A stretch of DNA of 63,668 nucleotides from an uncultured Roseburia sp. (GTDB lineage: Bacteria > Bacillota > Clostridia > Lachnospirales > Lachnospiraceae). Below are positions 55,193-63,668 of the stretch, in pieces. The number at the start of each line of letters is the position of its first letter. The stretch's first letter is position 1. The stretch lies in contig CAMXSH010000008.1 in assembly GCA_947246475.1 (NCBI GenBank), forward strand, positions 1 to 63,668. The letters run 5' to 3'. The notes beneath the pieces were generated by a model. The model ran no database searches, was not told the origin of the DNA, and worked only from the letters and a program-made list of their open reading frames with translations. The translations under genes were made by a program, and so were the position numbers.

Positions 55193-55271
55193 TTAAAACA
55201 ATAGTATTTAATGGTGTTAATTTGAATATATTTTTTATATAATTTCTTTTACACTTTTACCTGTCATACGT

Positions 55272-56243
55272 TCAATAATCCTGACAACGATTTTTTCTGT
55301 TGATCCAGGCAACAGAAGCATCCATTGCTGCGCGGCACGCCTTAGTCTGATCCAGTGCATTCAGCATGACAAAGTCATGAATCATCCCCTGAAATCTTAC
55401 TGTTGTCACATCTACCCCGGCTTCCCGAAGTTTTCTGGCATATGCCTCCCCTTCATCCCGCAGAACATCCGCCTCTCCATTTAGGATCATAGCATCTGGA
55501 AGTCCCTTCAACTGATCGATATCCGCCCTGAGAGGAGATGCGGTGATCTCATTTCTGTCACATGGCGACATCGTATATTGATCCCAGAACCACTTCATCC
55601 CTTCCCGGTAGAGATAATATCCTTCGGCAAACTGGCGATAAGAATCTGTACAAAAGCAGGCGTTTGTAACAGGATAATATAAGAGCTGTTTTTGAATATA
55701 CGGTCCCTTTCGTTCTTTTGCCATGATCGTCATGGCAATGGTCATATTTCCTCCCACACTGTCCCCAGCCACGGTAAGGGTGCACGGGTTCATCCGAATG
55801 TCCATTTTTTCCAGAATCGATGAAAGCCTGCATAACACGTTATAACACTGCTCGATCGCCACCGGATAACGTGCCTCCGGCGAACGGCTGTATTCCGGAA
55901 ATACTACAACAGAATCCGTCCTTGCTGCCAATTCTCTCACCAGCTTTTCATGCGTGTGGAAACTCCCAAAGACCCACCCCGCGCCGTGGATATAAAAAAT
56001 CACATTGGCGGGAGATGTAATATGTTCCGGGCAGACGATATAGACCGGAATTTTCCCCCATTCCCCCGTATTTACAGCAATCTTCCTGACGCCAGCCGGA
56101 TACATGCACACTGGAGCATTCTGCGCCTCCTCCAGCACTTCCCGCCCCTTCCATGGCGGCAGCTGAAAAATCAAAGGCGGTTTTGAATTGGCATCCGCGA
56201 CCTCCACTGCCTCCGGTTCAAGAGATATTCTATTTTCCATCAT
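55272..56243 (-). CDS. HSL-family alpha/beta hydrolase (esterase/lipase)
   Basis: 323 residues. The HSL oxyanion motif is HGAGWVFGSFHTHEKLV, the nucleophile elbow is GDSVGGNMTIA near residue 165, the acid aspartate is in NGEADVLRDEG, and the histidine is in GMIHDFVML. No signal peptide. It hydrolyses short acyl or aryl esters. It is upstream of and on the same strand as the oleate hydratase but is closed by its own terminator. Confidence 0.9.
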   Translation of the reverse strand: MMENRISLEPEAVEVADANSKPPLIFQLPPWKGREVLEEAQNAPVCMYPAGVRKIAVNTGEWGKIPVYIVCPEHITSPANVIFYIHGAGWVFGSFHTHEKLVRELAARTDSVVVFPEYSRSPEARYPVAIEQCYNVLCRLSSILEKMDIRMNPCTLTVAGDSVGGNMTIAMTIMAKERKGPYIQKQLLYYPVTNACFCTDSYRQFAEGYYLYREGMKWFWDQYTMSPCDRNEITASPLRADIDQLKGLPDAMILNGEADVLRDEGEAYARKLREAGVDVTTVRFQGMIHDFVMLNALDQTKACRAAMDASVAWINRKNRCQDY

Positions 56244-56327
56244 AAAATTCCTTTAACAACATTCTTACTTCATTCTATTCCTCTCTCAAAACACCGCCAC
56301 AAAAAATACAGCCTGATAACAGGAGTT

Positions 56328-56816
56328 CTATTTCTCAATGACTTCTTTTACCAGCTGCCACGCGATGCTGCCTTCCCGGAGAAGCGGCAACGCCTCATCA
56401 AATTTGACCCATTCAGCCGAATCAACCTCTCCCGATAAAGTAAAATCGTCTTTCTCTACAACTGCCTTATATCCCAGCATTAGCATTTCTTTCTTGTCAT
56501 AGGGATAACTTCTTATGTATTCTACTTCCTTTACTTTCAGTCCAATTTCTTCTGCTATCTCCCGGACCACCGTGTCCTCCGCCGACTCTCCAATCTTCAT
56601 GATCCCAGCAACACAGACATGTTTCGTCTCCGAAACATAATTCTGCCGTAACAGCGCGACCTCGTCCTGCTCGTTTACAACAGCTGCGATGATACTTGTC
56701 GTAAACATATCCCACAAAGGAATATCACAGTTCTCACAAAAAGGGATGAATCCCTCATCCCCTATTTCTTTTTTTATTAATTTATCTCCACAGTGTGGGC
56801 AGTATTGAAATTTCAT
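56328..56816 (-). CDS. Zinc-ribbon Nudix hydrolase
   Basis: 162 residues. An N-terminal zinc ribbon (YCPHCGDKL, then FCENCDIPL) is followed by a Nudix domain with the box GIMKIGESAEDTVVREIAEE and IGLKV directly after it, matching GX5EX7REUXEEXGU. The ribbon-plus-Nudix order resembles NADH pyrophosphatase-like or related nucleotide-cleaning enzymes. It starts just after the uracil-DNA glycosylase gene and both may share a transcript. Confidence 0.88.
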   Translation of the reverse strand: MKFQYCPHCGDKLIKKEIGDEGFIPFCENCDIPLWDMFTTSIIAAVVNEQDEVALLRQNYVSETKHVCVAGIMKIGESAEDTVVREIAEEIGLKVKEVEYIRSYPYDKKEMLMLGYKAVVEKDDFTLSGEVDSAEWVKFDEALPLLREGSIAWQLVKEVIEK

Positions 56817-56831
56817 GGCATTCTCCTCCGG

Positions 56832-57395
56832 CTAGTAGTTTCTTTGTTCATCCCGTTTTTTTACGATTTCCATAAAATCACCTTTCACAATCTCATACTT
56901 CGAAGGATCCTTCAGAATTGCAGAAGGATGGTATGTCGCAGTCAAAGCATAGTCTTTCCGATGTATCCAGGTACCATGCTGTTTCGTAATCTTAAAATCC
57001 GGCGAAATAATTCGCTGCGCAGCAACACGGCCAAGACAGACAATAATCTTGGGCTTTAGCAGATACGTCTCATATTTCAGATAAGGAAAGCATGCTTCTT
57101 TTTCCTCTCCCTTCGGATCACGATTGCCCGGAGGATGGCATTTCAAAATATTGGTGATATATATTTCATCTCTATCCAGTCCGCAGTCCTGTAACAGTCT
57201 GTCCAATATTTCCCCTGACCTCCCGACAAAGGGAATCCCCTGCTGATCTTCCTGTCCTCCGGGAGCTTCAGCAATCAGCATAACTTCAGCCTGGTAATTT
57301 CCACGTCCCATGACAGGCCGATTCCTGGTCTGACTCAAGGGACACCGGGTACAGGTGGCAACGTGCAGTTCAATTTCATTCCATGTAAGTTGCAT
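56832..57395 (-). CDS. Family 4 uracil-DNA glycosylase
   Basis: 187 residues from the ATG at 57395, with AAAGGAG upstream; the frame opens earlier without support. Fe-S cysteines are seen in CTRCPLSQTRN and later CHPPGNRDPKGEEKEAC. The active-site block is LIAEAPGGQEDQQGIPFVG (motif A, GEAPG-type) and the second motif is ATYHPSAIL. It removes uracil from DNA. It is followed after 15 bases by the Nudix gene. Confidence 0.9.
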   Translation of the reverse strand: MQLTWNEIELHVATCTRCPLSQTRNRPVMGRGNYQAEVMLIAEAPGGQEDQQGIPFVGRSGEILDRLLQDCGLDRDEIYITNILKCHPPGNRDPKGEEKEACFPYLKYETYLLKPKIIVCLGRVAAQRIISPDFKITKQHGTWIHRKDYALTATYHPSAILKDPSKYEIVKGDFMEIVKKRDEQRNY

Positions 57396-57849
57396 AAGGG
57401 CTCCTTTGTAACATGTATTTTTAATTTTTACTTTATTATACACATAAATAAAAGGGCTTGCAATCTTTAATTGGTGAGGGGAATGAATATGATTGATATG
57501 ATATGGTTTCGAGGATAAGAGTAAAGATATTGGTTACTTTTGGGTGATTGTATTTTTTTACTAGGTAAAAATATAAAAAAAGATAGTTTCTCTTTGTATG
57601 AGTGCTCCTTCTTATCGGTAGCAATAAATCAGATAATTTTTAATTCTACATTTCTATATATAATAGTGATTGACATGTTTCTTAGGACGGTCTGGCACGA
57701 AAGGACAGGAAGTATGTCATTGTTCCCATTGGTTCGTTCGATTTAATCCATCCCCTGTTTTAGCATGGCAACAGTATTAGGAAATATATCCATAAATATT
57801 CAAATTGCTTTATTTATTCACATAATTGAAACTTTTTTAAGTTACCTAA
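57396..57849. other. AT-rich gap without a recognised gene
   Basis: About 450 bases with no convincing reading frame, marking the left edge of the AT-rich block 57850-62053. A terminator for the operon on its right lies at 57850-57880. I see no inverted-repeat ends. Confidence 0.5.
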
Positions 57850-57880
57850 CAAAAAAGACAGGGCAGAAATCCGCCCCGTC
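57850..57880 (-). terminator. Terminator of the ThiC-like operon
   Basis: On the minus strand GACGGGGC (57873-57880) pairs with GCCCTGTC (57857-57864) and is followed by TTTTTT. Confidence 0.88.
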
Positions 57881-57895
57881 CGCAAGCTGCTATAA

Positions 57896-59365
57896 CTAAC
57901 CATCCCCTAAAAGCATTTTTTCAACCAAGCTAGTAATTATACTTAGTGCAATTGGATTTAATATTAACAATAGTGTAGCTAACCACAACGGTTCTTGGCT
58001 TAATACAACTGGCACAAAAACTAGCAAAATCAAAAAAATATATATACCTATTAATAATCTCCGTTTTAATGTCGCTTTAACAACACTTGCCAATAATTCA
58101 TTATTACTAATTAATGATGAAATCGCGCAAATCAAATCGTTGCAAGCATACATAGTATAACCTTCACATTGAGCCGGTCTTCTACTTCTAACAGCACCTT
58201 GAATCTCTCCATCTGATTTTTGCTTTAATAACATTTCCTCACATGCTACTTTCATAAATCTGCATATCTTGCTCTTAAAAAAAACACTTTTTTTTGATGG
58301 ATTTGCCGCTGTAATGCTAATAGTCCGCATATAATATAAACTTAAGGCTTCTAACACCAACGGTTCTAGATATAATTCATGAATAATTGGACGCTTAAAA
58401 GCATTCACGTTTCCATTATCTGTTTCAACAATAAACTGTGAAAAATCTTCACTTACACTTTCAAATTTTATCTTTTTCGGATTGTAATTCTTTAAAATAA
58501 ATTTTATAGCTTTATTAATAACAGTATTTACCTTTGCTTCCATATCACCTGGAACCGATACTGTGCATAAAGCTATAAGGACCTTTGCCGTATTTCCAAC
58601 TCTCGATCTCTCTCCTCTTTTAATCCCTACCCCTCCGTCTTGATTCATTATTTCACAAATCCAATTTAGGGTTTCTTTTATCGCCACTTCCATCCTTCCA
58701 ATCAATACTGACTGTGGATTAATATTTTTCTCTACACTCATAATTTGTGACATAACCATAATAGCATTGGTTGACGGAACCACATATGCAGGTATAACAT
58801 TTCTTCCCGTTCTATCCTCTAAATAGTTTATTCCAGTATATCCCCATCCTTGCCCAACTCTATTTTCTAACAGCCATTGAACACCTTTCTCTACTATTTC
58901 CAATCTATCACTTAATTCATTTAACATTTGATTAGTTAACGGATCAATCAAATCAGGTATTTGGGGATTATTTGTAATAAAATCCACTGCCATCAGTGCG
59001 TTTAAGGCATAATATGTATCACTAATAACCCCTTCCATTGAAACATTATCTTTTATTACCAAAGATATTTTGGATGGCCAAGAACCATCTGCATTTCTAA
59101 CAAATAGCAAGGTAGAAATGCCAGCCTTTACTACGTTAGATATTTCATCGTTTACACTCTCATTTATAAAATGTGAACTTGAAATTATCCCCAATGCCGT
59201 AGCGCATATATCTACGCCATCTTCTCTTGGCTGAGTCCCTTCTAAAAAAAATAAAGGCCAAACTAAGTATTTACTATTTCTAATTGAAACTTTTTGTTTC
59301 TTTGAAAGTATACATTGTTTACATATATTAATACTATGTTCTAACCTTTCCTGATCCAATTTCAT
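57896..59365 (-). CDS. Terpene-cyclase/prenyltransferase-type toroid with C-terminal anchor
   Basis: 489 residues from the ATG at 59365, which has GGAG nine bases upstream and begins one base after the dehydrogenase stop; the frame opens at 59401. Repeats of the squalene-cyclase/prenyltransferase alpha-alpha barrel are visible: VRNADGSWPS, NRVGQGWGYTG and IMNQDGGVGIKRG, with helix pairs such as SDTYYALNALMAVD. No DxDD-type acid motif is clear. Two membrane helices end the protein (IGIYIFLILLVFVPVVLS and LATLLLILNPIALSII). Membrane-bound action on a lipid or prenyl substrate is inferred. Confidence 0.65.
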   Translation of the reverse strand: MKLDQERLEHSINICKQCILSKKQKVSIRNSKYLVWPLFFLEGTQPREDGVDICATALGIISSSHFINESVNDEISNVVKAGISTLLFVRNADGSWPSKISLVIKDNVSMEGVISDTYYALNALMAVDFITNNPQIPDLIDPLTNQMLNELSDRLEIVEKGVQWLLENRVGQGWGYTGINYLEDRTGRNVIPAYVVPSTNAIMVMSQIMSVEKNINPQSVLIGRMEVAIKETLNWICEIMNQDGGVGIKRGERSRVGNTAKVLIALCTVSVPGDMEAKVNTVINKAIKFILKNYNPKKIKFESVSEDFSQFIVETDNGNVNAFKRPIIHELYLEPLVLEALSLYYMRTISITAANPSKKSVFFKSKICRFMKVACEEMLLKQKSDGEIQGAVRSRRPAQCEGYTMYACNDLICAISSLISNNELLASVVKATLKRRLLIGIYIFLILLVFVPVVLSQEPLWLATLLLILNPIALSIITSLVEKMLLGDG

Positions 59366-59366
59366 T

Positions 59367-60512
59367 TTAACTTTCTCCAAATACTTTATTAAGTATATCA
59401 CTTATTATATCATCCGTCATTTCCCTCGGATTGCCATCCATATCCCCATTATATGATTCACATATTAATTCTTTAAAATCAATGTAAAATGTAGTTCTGT
59501 CAATCTCATGTTGCAAAGCATATTTGTCAAAACCTATCTCTGCATAAAAAGCATTCAAAGCTTCAGGTAATGTCTTAAATGTTTGATTTAATTTTTTCTC
59601 AAAAATTAATTTTACAGTTTCATATTCCGTTTTGGCATAAGAATAATTCGCTTCAACTACATATGGCAATAAAATACCAACAGCTTCTCCATGGTGAATA
59701 TCATATCTTCCGCTTATTGGATCAGATATTGCATGTGCAGCTCCTACTGTACTTTGTCCTACTGCATACAATCCCTCTATTGAAGCTAAAGCCAACTCCT
59801 CCATTATTTTCGTTTTTTCATTTCCCTTTACTAAGTCTAATAAACCAGTTATTACTCGTTCTATAGCCGAATATGAAAATCTCCTTGAAAAAGACTGCGA
59901 TTTAGTTGATACAGCCGATTCTATTCCTTGAACCATAGCATCCAATGATGTCTTTATACACATATCATTTGACAAACTCGCCGTAAATGAGCAGTCAATA
60001 AAAGTAGCTTTAGGATATATATATGTACTAAAAATAACTCTTTTTTTATTTCTAATTTTCAATAACGCAGCTGGAGAAACTTCAGCACCTGTGCCAAAAA
60101 TAGTTGGTATTGTAATAACGGGAATAACCCTATTAGTAATTCCTGGTACACTTATTTTTCCATCTGTTGTATAATCTTCGAGTTTCTCATTATGGGTCAT
60201 AGCGATTGCTAATGCTTTTCCAGAATCATGTACACTTCCGCCACCAACAGTTAAAATAACATCTATTTTCTGTACCCCACTGGCTATACTTTCAATTAAT
60301 TCAATCTCAGGATTTGATTTTACCCCATCCTTTAAAATGACTGAAAAATTTCCTTTTAACCTATTACTAATATTCTCAGCAATTTTCAAAGTACTTTTGC
60401 CACCTGTCAAAATTAATACATTATTACCATACTGTTTTATCTCAACAAACAAATTATCATAATCTAATTTACCAAAATATACTTTTGTTGGTGCATTATA
60501 TGTAAAGTTCAT
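59367..60512 (-). CDS. Iron-containing alcohol dehydrogenase family protein
   Basis: 381 residues of the Fe-ADH/dehydroquinate-like fold. Seen are VYFGKLDYDN at the start, the cofactor loop LTVGGGSVHDSGKA and TIPTIFGTGAEVSP. The metal region DAMVQGIES has Asp but Gln where the second ligand His normally stands; the later ligands GAAHAISDP and IHHGEAVGILLP are present. The gene starts 13 bases after the ThiC-like gene behind AAGGAGG and is followed by the toroid gene, so all three form one operon. The substrate is unknown. Confidence 0.88.
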   Translation of the reverse strand: MNFTYNAPTKVYFGKLDYDNLFVEIKQYGNNVLILTGGKSTLKIAENISNRLKGNFSVILKDGVKSNPEIELIESIASGVQKIDVILTVGGGSVHDSGKALAIAMTHNEKLEDYTTDGKISVPGITNRVIPVITIPTIFGTGAEVSPAALLKIRNKKRVIFSTYIYPKATFIDCSFTASLSNDMCIKTSLDAMVQGIESAVSTKSQSFSRRFSYSAIERVITGLLDLVKGNEKTKIMEELALASIEGLYAVGQSTVGAAHAISDPISGRYDIHHGEAVGILLPYVVEANYSYAKTEYETVKLIFEKKLNQTFKTLPEALNAFYAEIGFDKYALQHEIDRTTFYIDFKELICESYNGDMDGNPREMTDDIISDILNKVFGES

Positions 60513-60525
60513 ATTTATTCCTCCT

Positions 60526-61710
60526 TCAATTCAGTATCGTCAACGGACATTCATATCTACATCTACTACAGCCCGCACCATCTTCACTAACTGTATCATC
60601 CGCAAAAATTCCACCCTTAATAACACAGCTTCTATTATTGGCTCTATTATCAGCAATTGCGGTATCAATTTCCCTATATTTAGCAAATCTTGCAACATTG
60701 ATACTGTGTGCCACTACTCTAGCAGTTTTTAGACCTTCCACTATAGAATCATTGGTGGGAACATTTCCTGTATGTTCCTCTCTGGTAACAGAATTTATAA
60801 CACCCACATTTCCGTTCAAAGCTGTCACAGTCGCCCCAATCGCAGCAGTTACGTGATCAAAACCTATAGTTGCATCCGTCGGCATTGGACCCAATGGCAT
60901 TAATGGAGTATTGTATTCATTTATCAATTTGCAATATTCAGGAATCATCTCTAACGAAATATGTCCAATTCCTTCCATCATCACATTAACTCCGTTAGCC
61001 TTAGCAATGTCTATATATTTTTTTTGTTCCTTAATTTCTTCTAACTGTACTAAATCTAATGCCTCACATATACAAGCAGGTCTAAATGTTGTTCCTACGC
61101 TTAATGTCAAATTATATTTCTTAAATAATTTAAGTATATCACTAAAATTATCTACAAATACATTTTCAATTCGATTGTTCAAGATAGCATCTTTTAGTAC
61201 AACTGCTCCACCTCGCGATGTTGTTGGGATTTTTCTACACTTTTTTGCCATTTCTAACAATGAAACTGTAGCTGTAGGATGTAATGTCATAAAAGAAACA
61301 CCACCTTGTGCCATTTCTTCTATCGTTTCCAATAATTTTCCTCTATCGATCCCATTATCTATATCAAAAGTTGAGTAATGAGGCAAAGTACCCACGGGTC
61401 CTTTAAATTCCTCTACCATATACTTCCACAATGGTCTTTCTACAGGGACATAGGTATGATCCATCATTGTGTCAGGTGCATATTTCAGTCCAACCAAACA
61501 TTTCAGTTTCCTCAATTCAATTTCCAAATTAGTAATATCAGAAACTCCTATATTAGTATTGACTTTTAATAACATTTGTGGTCCAATCACCAATGGGTAG
61601 TTATCATGATGAATATAAGATATACAGGAATCAGAATCAAATAATCTTGTGATATCATATTCAGTAATCAATCCCGATTGAACCTCTCGCGTTTGTGATA
61701 AATTTTTCAT
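60526..61710 (-). CDS. ThiC-like radical SAM enzyme (paralogue of unknown function)
   Basis: 394 residues from the ATG at 61710 (MKNLSQT), behind GGAAGGTGATGAG. It aligns by eye with phosphomethylpyrimidine synthase: FMTLHPTAT (FMTIHAGV in ThiC), TTSRGGAVV (SRGGS), LSVGTTFRPAC (LSLGDGLRPG), VMMEGIGHISL (EGPGH with metal His) and GPMPTDATIGFDHVTAA (PTDIAPGYDHI). The Fe-S motif near the C-terminus reads CSRCRYEC, CX2CX3C, one residue shorter than ThiC CX2CX4C. No thiamine genes or TPP riboswitch are nearby. ThiC paralogues such as BzaF make other products, so a new radical reaction is plausible. Confidence 0.8.
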   Translation of the reverse strand: MKNLSQTREVQSGLITEYDITRLFDSDSCISYIHHDNYPLVIGPQMLLKVNTNIGVSDITNLEIELRKLKCLVGLKYAPDTMMDHTYVPVERPLWKYMVEEFKGPVGTLPHYSTFDIDNGIDRGKLLETIEEMAQGGVSFMTLHPTATVSLLEMAKKCRKIPTTSRGGAVVLKDAILNNRIENVFVDNFSDILKLFKKYNLTLSVGTTFRPACICEALDLVQLEEIKEQKKYIDIAKANGVNVMMEGIGHISLEMIPEYCKLINEYNTPLMPLGPMPTDATIGFDHVTAAIGATVTALNGNVGVINSVTREEHTGNVPTNDSIVEGLKTARVVAHSINVARFAKYREIDTAIADNRANNRSCVIKGGIFADDTVSEDGAGCSRCRYECPLTILN

Positions 61711-61941
61711 CTCATCACCTTCCAATTCCATTTAGTATTTACTCACTTTCTCAATATTTTGTTATAACTGAAACAGAAAAGCGTATTGTAATTAGTAATG
61801 ACTTAGTTAAAATTAGATTAATTGATTTTATCCTTAATTTCTAATCCATCTAAATAGCACTATTAACTTTAAAGCTTAATATAATCTCGTATATTCAATA
61901 TGGAACCTATACCCATCTCAATTATATAACTTCTTAAATTT

Positions 61942-61969
61942 ATTATAAAAGATTTGTTTAATATTGCAA
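61942..61969 (-). promoter_or_regulatory. Possible promoter of the ThiC-like operon
   Basis: On the minus strand TTGCAA (61964-61969), a 16-base spacer and TATAAT (61942-61947). It predicts a leader of about 230 bases in the AT-rich gap 61711-61941, where no gene or recognised riboswitch was found. Confidence 0.5.
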
Positions 61970-61987
61970 TATGGCTACACCATACTT

Positions 61988-62031
61988 TGTCGAACTACAA
62001 AGAACCTTGCAATTCATTGTCGAACTGCAAG
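61988..62031. repeat. Direct and inverted repeats beside the recombinase gene
   Basis: TTGTCGAACTRCAARG occurs twice 30 bases apart (61987-62002 and 62017-62032). CCTTGCA and TGCAAGG form an inverted repeat across the second copy. They lie just past the recombinase stop and may be an attachment or resolution site; the TGTCGAA cores also look like 0A boxes. Confidence 0.5.
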
Positions 62032-62053
62032 GCATTTGGTCATTTCCTATATT

Positions 62054-63629
62054 TTATCTCTCCACATCTATTTCCAATCCCGATTTAAACTTCACCGTCA
62101 GCCTATCATCATACACCGTAATTTTCTCCACCAACCTCCGAACCAACTGCTCATCATATCCCAATGGCTCATTAACCTGTTTCTCCAAAAAGGCTCTCAT
62201 TTCCTCAATCCTCTGCCGCCTGCCATCCCTCTCCGCATCCTGTGTCAGAACATCCTGCCGCTGCTCCCTCAGTTTATGAATCTCATCCGCAACATCTCCA
62301 TATTCCTTTTTGCCGTTTGCCAGCCTCAAAAGCTCCTGCTGCAGTTCGCCCAGCCTACGGTCAATCTCCGCAATCTGCTCCCCGCTTTCACTCTCCAGCA
62401 CCTCTCTGATATTCTTTTCTAAAACAGGCAGGAATACATCCTTTCCACCCATTACTTCCTGAACCGCCTTTACCACCGCATTCTGCAGATCCGATTCCTG
62501 AATGGTTGATGCATCACATTTCTTTGGCCCATGCTCCACACGGGTACAGCACCGCCAGACCGTGGAATGTTTTCCCCTATTGTTCCATGCAATCCTGCGG
62601 TAAATGTCCCCACATTTGGAGCAGTAAACAATGCTTGACAAAGCATATTTGTTGCTATAGACCCGTTTCTTCCTTTTTGCTCCGCTGTGGAGATTTTCCC
62701 TCCGTGCCATCTCCTCCTGAACCTGCATATAAAGCACGGGGAATGATTGGCTCGTGGCTGTTCTCCACATAATACTGCGGTACAATGCCATTGTTCTTAA
62801 CCCGCTTCTTTGAAAGAAAATCCACTGTATAAGTTTTCTGCAGGAGGGCATCCCCGATATACTCCTCGTTCTGCAATATTTTCTTCAACGTTTCCGGCCG
62901 CCACTTTGCCTTTCCCGCCGCTGTCAGGATGCCGTCTGCCTCCAGGCTTTTTCCAATTTGTGCGAGGCTCTCCCCTTCCAGATATTCCCGGTAAATCCGC
63001 TTTACAACCTCTGCCTCTTCCGGCTCAATAATCAGCTGCCCTTCCTCATCCTTCGTGTATCCAAGGAAACGGTTATGGTTGACCTGCACAAGCCCCTGTT
63101 GGTAGCGGTACTGCAGCCCAAGCTTCACATTCTGGCTTAAGGACTGGCTTTCCTGCTGTGCCAGCGATGCCATGATGGTCAGCAGCACCTCCCCTTTGGA
63201 ATCCATGGTATTGATATTCTCTTTTTCAAAAAATACGGGGATATTCCTGTCTTTTAACTGCCGGATGTATTTCAGGCAGTCCAGTGTGTTCCTTGCAAAA
63301 CGGCTGATGGACTTGGTAATGACCATATTGATTTTTCCCGCCATGCATTCCTCGATCATGCGGTTAAACTCCCCGCGTTTACGGGTGTCAGTGCCAGAAA
63401 GACCTTCATCCGCAAATATCCCGGCCAGTTCCCATTCGGGATTTTTCTGTATATATTCCGTATAATGTTCGATCTGTGCCTCATAGCTTGTCGCCTGTTC
63501 TTCGACGTCCGTGGAAACACGGCAGTAAGCGGCAACCCGTAGCTTTGGATTATCCTCATCCTTTTCCTGTCTTGTGGCATGGTATCTTGCTGGGATGACT
63601 GTCACATTTGCATTCTTGTTTATCACCAT
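62054..63629 (-). pseudogene. Large serine recombinase, frameshifted
   Basis: From the ATG at 63629 the resolvase domain reads [10 protein letters not shown] (catalytic Ser), then [18 protein letters not shown] and [13 protein letters not shown]. The recombinase domain follows ([21 protein letters not shown]). Near 62725-62745, after HEPIIPR, the frame breaks. The other frame continues with [16 protein letters not shown], the zinc ribbon YCSKCGDIYRR...RCC, a coiled coil and TVKFKSGLEIDV to 62054. Together they make a typical 525-residue integrase of a conjugative or phage-type element. A deletion of a few bases probably inactivated it. Confidence 0.88.
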
Positions 63630-63668
63630 CTCTATCCCTCGCTTTCTATCAGGCTGTAAGCATATTCC

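Follow-up and report, generated by a model that had tools for sequence, protein, structure and literature searches.

The locus studied here is a three-gene operon with a ThiC-like first gene, found in 63,668 nt of DNA from an uncultured Roseburia sp. (GenBank assembly GCA_947246475.1, contig CAMXSH010000008.1, positions 1 to 63,668; hereafter the window), and several described systems bear on it. The first is Thoeris, in which the effector ThsA carries a SIR2 NADase and a SLOG domain and is activated by a cyclic ADP-ribose (cADPR) isomer made by the TIR protein ThsB; according to excerpts of PMC10022894, the SLOG residues R371, K388 and E403 coordinate 3'cADPR. BzaA/B and BzaF are paralogues derived from ThiC that have acquired a new product, as the family described below probably has too. 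To our knowledge, radical S-adenosylmethionine (SAM) chemistry of the ThiC type is otherwise confined to the synthesis of vitamin B1 and the B12 ligand. Prokaryotic viperins (pVips) are radical-SAM defence enzymes that work on nucleotides, act directly and belong to a branch without the ThiC fold; we know of none that pairs with ThsA. Finally, squalene-hopene and other class II terpene cyclases, whose catalytic motif is DXDD, and AGE-type sugar epimerases share the (alpha/alpha) toroid fold predicted for the third protein of the operon.

We find that the operon belongs to a new ThiC-like family that, by sequence comparison, is tied to a known immune effector, ThsA. We propose, with a probability of roughly 0.5, that it represents one branch of a new candidate anti-phage family in which the ThiC-like enzyme would make a nucleotide-derived signal; we infer the defence role, the signal and the direction of action from the gene associations and residue changes set out below. 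An earlier sequence-only reading had instead suggested a pathway attaching a ThiC-type product to a prenyl or lipid carrier, and this is probably wrong. The three open reading frames (ORFs) were confirmed in the order P0001, P0002, P0003, with gaps of 13 bases and 1 base:

60526..61710, minus strand: P0001, ThiC-like radical-SAM-type enzyme, 394 aa, the core gene of the family (Pfam ThiC_Rad_SAM)
59367..60512, minus strand: P0002, dehydrogenase resembling iron-type alcohol dehydrogenases (Fe-ADH), 381 aa, with one predicted metal-ligand His changed to Gln (Pfam Fe-ADH and ADH_Fe_C)
57896..59365, minus strand: P0003, predicted (alpha/alpha) toroid protein with a C-terminal membrane segment, 489 aa (from a model and a fold match)

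P0001 has the ThiC fold and Pfam domain PF01964. It scored below the cut-offs of the NCBIfam phosphomethylpyrimidine synthase equivalogs (225.3 of 410, 213.5 of 460 and 177.6 of 650 bits) and of the NCBIfam BzaB model (161.7 of 700 bits). In a tree, the 35 family rows assembled below formed one 100/100 branch, separate from 37 rows of ThiC, BzaA, BzaB and BzaF. The 20 rows labelled ThiC were the other ThiC-type matches of the source genomes, two of which (L086 and L087) grouped with the Bza rows, and the 16 BzaA/B rows comprised eight matches above the BzaB cut-off and eight neighbouring paralogues. By these comparisons P0001 is a member of an undescribed ThiC-like family, and its position outside ThiC, BzaA/B and BzaF agrees with the ThiC paralogue of the sequence-only reading.

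No other copy was present among 144 other relatives of the window's genome (145 with its own) at E 1e-50. A class-level search of 391 genomes (E 1e-45) yielded one further member, in G211, and a phylum-level search of 398 genomes with a two-row profile (E 1e-56) yielded another, in G660, together with the canonical ThiC of G727. The window protein and these two members have MPLGP and EEH[ST]G in common, and a DNA pattern for both motifs was scanned over a contig collection (84,980 species by its description). The scan returned 35 loci, 34 with the motif in frame within a ThiC-like ORF; the other, L035, was excluded from all counts. The 35 members counted throughout are these 34 loci, G211 and G660 among them, plus the window. 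Because the pattern catches only members with both motifs, the family count is a lower bound, and figures out of 35 count near-copies twice (L073/L075, which are identical, L076/L077, L053/L056, L071/L072 and L081/L082). All 35 members carry a single CX2CX3CP motif; assigned from organism names, they belong to the Bacillota, Bacteroidota, Pseudomonadota, Actinomycetota, Planctomycetota and Myxococcota. Across 31 source genomes (cut-off E 1e-40; the L025 genome lies outside this set), the family member scored 311-469 bits against 141-190 for other ThiC-type matches.

Scanning the contig collection with P0001 as a single protein produced 78 pattern matches and no relatives, protein alignments and DNA patterns found no members on viral contigs, and tblastn matches on plasmids and phages all lay below 60% identity, with annotations of ThiC, BzaF or none among the best matches listed. 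Candidates L007-L011 and L014 proved to be canonical ThiC by their motifs, and the spacing of the CX2CX3C cluster was dropped as a difference from ThiC, since short ThiCs, this genome's own included, share it. The family is rare near the window's lineage and its distribution is patchy.

ThiC residues that serve the [4Fe-4S] cluster and the second metal are retained in the family, as are most of those that contact SAM, the phosphate and the ribose: both metal-binding histidines and the cluster cysteines are conserved in 35/35 rows, and four SAM-site residues are conserved as well. Set against ThiC (structures 4s25-4s28 and 3epm), it differs in the residues of aminoimidazole ribonucleotide (AIR) chemistry, D383, Y449 and Cys474, whose roles are described in excerpts of PMC4389238 and PMC11117688: all three are replaced in every family row and conserved in 20/20 rows labelled ThiC. 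Although Y449M belonged to the search pattern, it holds too in the three members found without it. Unlike the family, BzaA/B and BzaF sit on the ThiC side of the tree and keep Cys474 in 17/17 rows and D383 in 16/17. A further difference is an extra cysteine at most 40 aa before the cluster, present in 35/35 family rows versus 2 of the 31 ThiC/Bza rows (of 37) whose cluster was recognised by pattern. Residue C362 of P0001 (window 60625-60627), a cysteine upstream of the cluster motif, is invariant in a 25-row alignment; it may have taken over from Cys474, either in catalysis or in association with the cluster.

From its conserved residues and a model, P0001 is predicted to bind SAM and a phosphoribosyl substrate. 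Since the AIR-chemistry residues have been lost while those for SAM, metal, phosphate and ribose have been kept, the substrate is probably a 5'-ribonucleotide other than that of ThiC. The same loss makes a ThiC-type rearrangement product, which the sequence-only reading had found attractive, unlikely.

The commonest operon type connects the family to ThsA. A SIR2-SLOG protein is encoded directly upstream of the ThiC-like gene in 20 of the 35 loci (17 complete, two cut by a contig end, one fragmented), and a 21st member of the same subclade, L074, lies at a contig end. The copy in G660 matched the PADLOC ThsA model at 1.5e-88 over residues 2-455 of 456 and ThsA in the PDB (6lhx) at 3.3e-54. All 17 complete pairs are co-directional, and -47 to +11 nt separate the two genes if each ORF is taken to begin at its first start codon, a choice on which the overlaps depend. 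The ThiC-linked ThsAs separate as a clade (17 rows versus 6, 100/100), and distances among them correlate with distances among the ThiC-like partners (Mantel r 0.85, 0/5000 permutations, 15 loci, with L077 and L056 the only near-copies omitted).

In BcThsA numbering, transferred through the 6lhx alignment, the SIR2 residues N112 and H152 and the SLOG residues R371 and E403 are kept in all 17 ThiC-linked ThsAs, whereas K388 is replaced in 16/17 of them versus 1/6 TIR-linked rows. By eye, a loop of roughly 11 residues is missing from the ThiC-linked proteins, which have GQS-x-G, NPY and G-x-GT motifs of their own. This pattern suggests an intact NADase with a changed ligand pocket, as would be expected if the ligand differs from that of Thoeris.

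Ordinary ThsAs have a different partner. Among plasmids, seven regions were examined of 95 records with a match, and a TIR gene was directly adjacent to ThsA in 6/6 of those annotated (the seventh was unannotated). Eight proteins flanking plasmid ThsAs (seven annotated as TIR, one hypothetical) served as the ThsB query, and neither hidden Markov model nor phmmer searches found a ThsB-type TIR among ORFs of at least 60 aa around the 35 members, some of whose loci are cut by contig ends. Together, these results indicate that the ThiC-like gene occupies the position of the TIR gene. The commonest branch of the family thus resembles Thoeris in its effector, its intact SIR2 residues, its SLOG R371 and E403 and its coupled two-gene operon, and departs from it in the enzyme beside ThsA and in the SLOG domain. 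In the literature searched, which omits most subscription papers and all bioRxiv preprints, we found no link of ThiC-like proteins to Thoeris or phage defence, nor was the word ThiC found in the main text of two conflict-system surveys.

Some ThsA-type loci have features of their own. The pair lies, by eye, within an apparent cysS...rlmB housekeeping cluster in Syntrophomonas, a Syntrophomonadaceae metagenome-assembled genome, Desulfosporosinus and Desulforamulus (L015:7143-10988, L063, L066 and L069), and the first three of these organisms have thymidylate-synthase- and dihydrofolate-reductase-like genes beside it. In Desulfosporosinus sp. BRH_c37 (L066:3399-4707), ThsA is split into three ORF fragments and the ThiC-like gene is intact.

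The three operon types correspond to three subclades of the ThiC-like tree. The window type, with both dehydrogenase and toroid, was found in six loci: the window, an uncultured Clostridia (L065), Hoeflea (L071), Magnetospirillum (L072), Bacteroidales (L068) and Plantactinospora (L057). Order and strand are the same in five of them; in Plantactinospora the dehydrogenase gene is reversed and displaced. The three genes do stay together, as the sequence-only reading supposed. The dehydrogenase gene is also visible in L064 and L025 before the available sequence ends, which brings it to eight of the subclade's nine loci; in L067 the toroid is divergent and accompanied by a 105-aa ORF. A dehydrogenase match in L078 was not counted as a family partner: the protein looks like a normal Fe-ADH, is encoded well away from the ThiC-like gene and is 20-29% identical to the others. 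A thymidylate-kinase-looking gene follows the toroid in Hoeflea (L071:5721-6329) and Magnetospirillum (L072:13338-13934), a possible fourth component there; Pfam Thymidylate_kin matched two of the 96 neighbours analysed across the family.

The third type comprises five loci. In four, a protein of 412-421 aa is encoded upstream (two are identical); the one scanned, from L073, had no Pfam match. The fifth, G211, has a protease downstream (Trypsin_2, 5.9e-17) with a sub-threshold EAD7 match (24.5 of 32 bits). A resemblance seen by eye between the N-terminus of the L005 protease and the third-type upstream protein was set aside when a profile search did not find it. In Clostridium sp. CMCC3677 (L005:14378-18946), a gene upstream of the ThiC-like/protease pair encodes 1522 aa weakly similar to AAA-type NTPases (PADLOC PDC-M54A, 2.9e-16; Pfam below cut-off) and may be part of the same island.

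The window's branch has no ThsA at all: neither Pfam nor PADLOC found a SIR2-SLOG protein in the operon. The window operon has two other partners. P0002 has the Fe-ADH Pfam domains, and in the alignment one histidine of the predicted Asp/His3 metal site, noticed before as altered, is Gln in 6/7 readable rows. P0003 had no match in Pfam or on plasmids; homologues occur in six further loci, one of them divergent (L067, left out of the invariants). D52-x-C54, H329-E330 and R395-R396 are invariant across the six close rows, and D52-C54-H329 is to be taken as a predicted motif, not a geometry. A structural model and a fold match point to an (alpha/alpha) toroid, and the C-terminus is hydrophobic in 7/7 rows. 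The squalene-cyclase likeness proposed at first is no closer than that to sugar epimerases: DXDD is absent from 7/7 rows, identity to terpene cyclase and epimerase rows is 8-16%, and the C-terminal hydrophobic segment is extra to both groups.

Two further features flank the operon:

57856..57881, minus strand: terminator-like hairpin 3' of the last operon gene, 11 pairs of which 7 are G-C, with a T-rich tail
62054..63668, minus strand: large serine recombinase in two overlapping frames, leaving the contig at its end; likely mobiliser of the cargo slot

The tight linkage, shared terminator-like hairpin and adjoining recombinase, here the upstream neighbour, were observed as first described. The operon is poorer in GC (33.2%) than the recombinase (48.5%) and the window as a whole (42.3%). 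Both flanks of the operon (55233-57472 and 61968-63668) match DNA of the same-genus genome G024 (L137) at 94%, and the site holds different genes in different relatives. In G024 (L137:3246-6292) these are a 707-aa HD-CE domain protein (7.2e-21) and a 321-aa partner weakly like IucA/IucC, a cargo with no PADLOC match. In G016 (L138:2556-8667) the site has an SpbK-like TIR gene (PADLOC 7.5e-62) and two asparaginase-like genes, the product of one of which matches TIR below threshold; the set may be a further defence cassette not yet on record. G017 (L139:3786-7222) has a pVip-like radical-SAM gene (1.1e-20), a CYTH gene and a metallo-beta-lactamase-fold gene. The recombinase is reduced to a 68-bp trace in G016 and split over more than one ORF in G017. 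Differing cargo at the same site argues that the window operon is itself interchangeable cargo, and in the window's genus the other cargo of this slot is partly defence-related.

Across the family, we analysed 96 neighbours hand-picked from 198 listed, the window recombinase included. Pfam assigned them to Recombinase (6), Methylase_S (5), Resolvase (5), N6_Mtase (3), HSDR_N (2) and OLD-like TOPRIM (2), and PADLOC type I specificity and methylase models matched five members each; no thiamine family was among the 25 commonest of 60. A control of 84 neighbours in 11 canonical thiC regions of the same genome set gave thiamine-phosphate synthase (4), ThiG (3) and ThiF (2), and its 25 commonest families, out of 99, include none for restriction; the comparison is a tally, without a statistical test.

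ThsA adjacency in 20/35 loci, restriction and recombinase neighbours and the cargo slot make immune signalling a better reading than a lipid-carrier pathway, a context that the wider family reveals and the single operon could not. In the mechanism we propose, infection would switch on the ThiC-like enzyme, which would turn a 5'-ribonucleotide into the infection signal, a modified nucleotide (or ribose-phosphate). In the commonest branch, the adjacent ThsA would recognise this signal through its altered SLOG domain and activate its SIR2 NADase, so that NAD is destroyed, in analogy to the action of TIR-made cyclic ADP-ribose in Thoeris. In the window's branch, oxidation, reduction or removal of the signal might fall to the Fe-ADH-like enzyme, and the toroid, anchored in the membrane by its C-terminus, might be receptor and effector there. 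A wider version of this proposal is tentative, and we hold it at somewhat under even odds: a ThiC-derived radical-SAM enzyme would be the signal synthase of a new class of immunity, its messenger unlike a cyclic nucleotide or cADPR isomer and read by a remodelled ThsA SLOG domain, by a membrane toroid, the dehydrogenase adjusting the signal, or by the protease or unknown-domain effector of the third type.

Several observations weigh against immune signalling by this operon. ThsA is confined to another branch than the window's, PADLOC matched none of the three window proteins, and the roles given to toroid and dehydrogenase are guesses, the fold of P0003 being as near to terpene cyclases as to sugar epimerases and so compatible with more than one kind of ligand. 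All nine rows of the window subclade have His in place of L259, a residue that in AtThiC packs against the adenine of SAM. Around the family, many neighbours are non-defence genes, AAA_21 occurs in three members as in the control (3), and L056 has a CAP12/PC-TIR gene of another type 479 bp downstream. The family product could also be a direct antiviral nucleotide instead of a signal.

This last idea leads to the best placed of the alternatives, which we nevertheless consider unlikely: as with viperins, the product of the ThiC-like enzyme would directly poison phage replication, and ThsA and the toroid would be separate or back-up arms. The predicted SAM radical chemistry on a nucleotide would suit it, as would the putative effector of the window's branch and the pVip-like gene in the same cargo slot in G017. 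However, pVips are another radical-SAM family, and a signal-receptor pair better explains the tight coupling, the co-inheritance and the changed SLOG pocket of ThsA. Next in rank, and also doubtful, is a ThiC-like protein that acts as a sensor or regulator, restraining ThsA and the other effectors by contact or through a bound metabolite. Overlapping genes suggest a complex, and excerpts of PMC10022894 report that ThsA SLOG mutants can be constitutively active, which makes a restrainer conceivable; a pure regulator, however, need not keep the metal and cluster residues (35/35) and four SAM-site residues that point to an active radical-SAM enzyme.

A specialised-metabolite or cofactor pathway ranks third and is improbable. 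It would combine a ThiC-like rearrangement product, an Fe-ADH redox step and a prenyl-binding membrane toroid for attachment or transport, close to the sequence-only reading, and it is opposed by the loss of the ThiC chemistry residues in every member, the ThsA linkage, the patchy distribution with no copy in the 144 relatives, and the variable cargo slot. An ordinary divergent ThiC or BzaF paralogue for thiamine or benzimidazole synthesis is very improbable, given the scores far under the equivalog cut-offs, the position outside the ThiC and Bza clades, the missing catalytic residues, the neighbours free of thiamine families among the commonest 25, a separate canonical ThiC on another contig of the same genome, and a region (57000-63668) in which Rfam matched nothing above threshold and so gave no thiamine pyrophosphate (TPP) riboswitch.

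If immune signalling by the ThiC-like family is correct, ThiC-type radical-SAM chemistry would have been recruited to make immune alarm molecules, and bacterial immunity would gain an enzyme class, and probably also a messenger, not known there before. It would also account for a ThsA subfamily without TIR partners, and the toroid-membrane branch to which the Roseburia operon belongs would represent a new type of effector.

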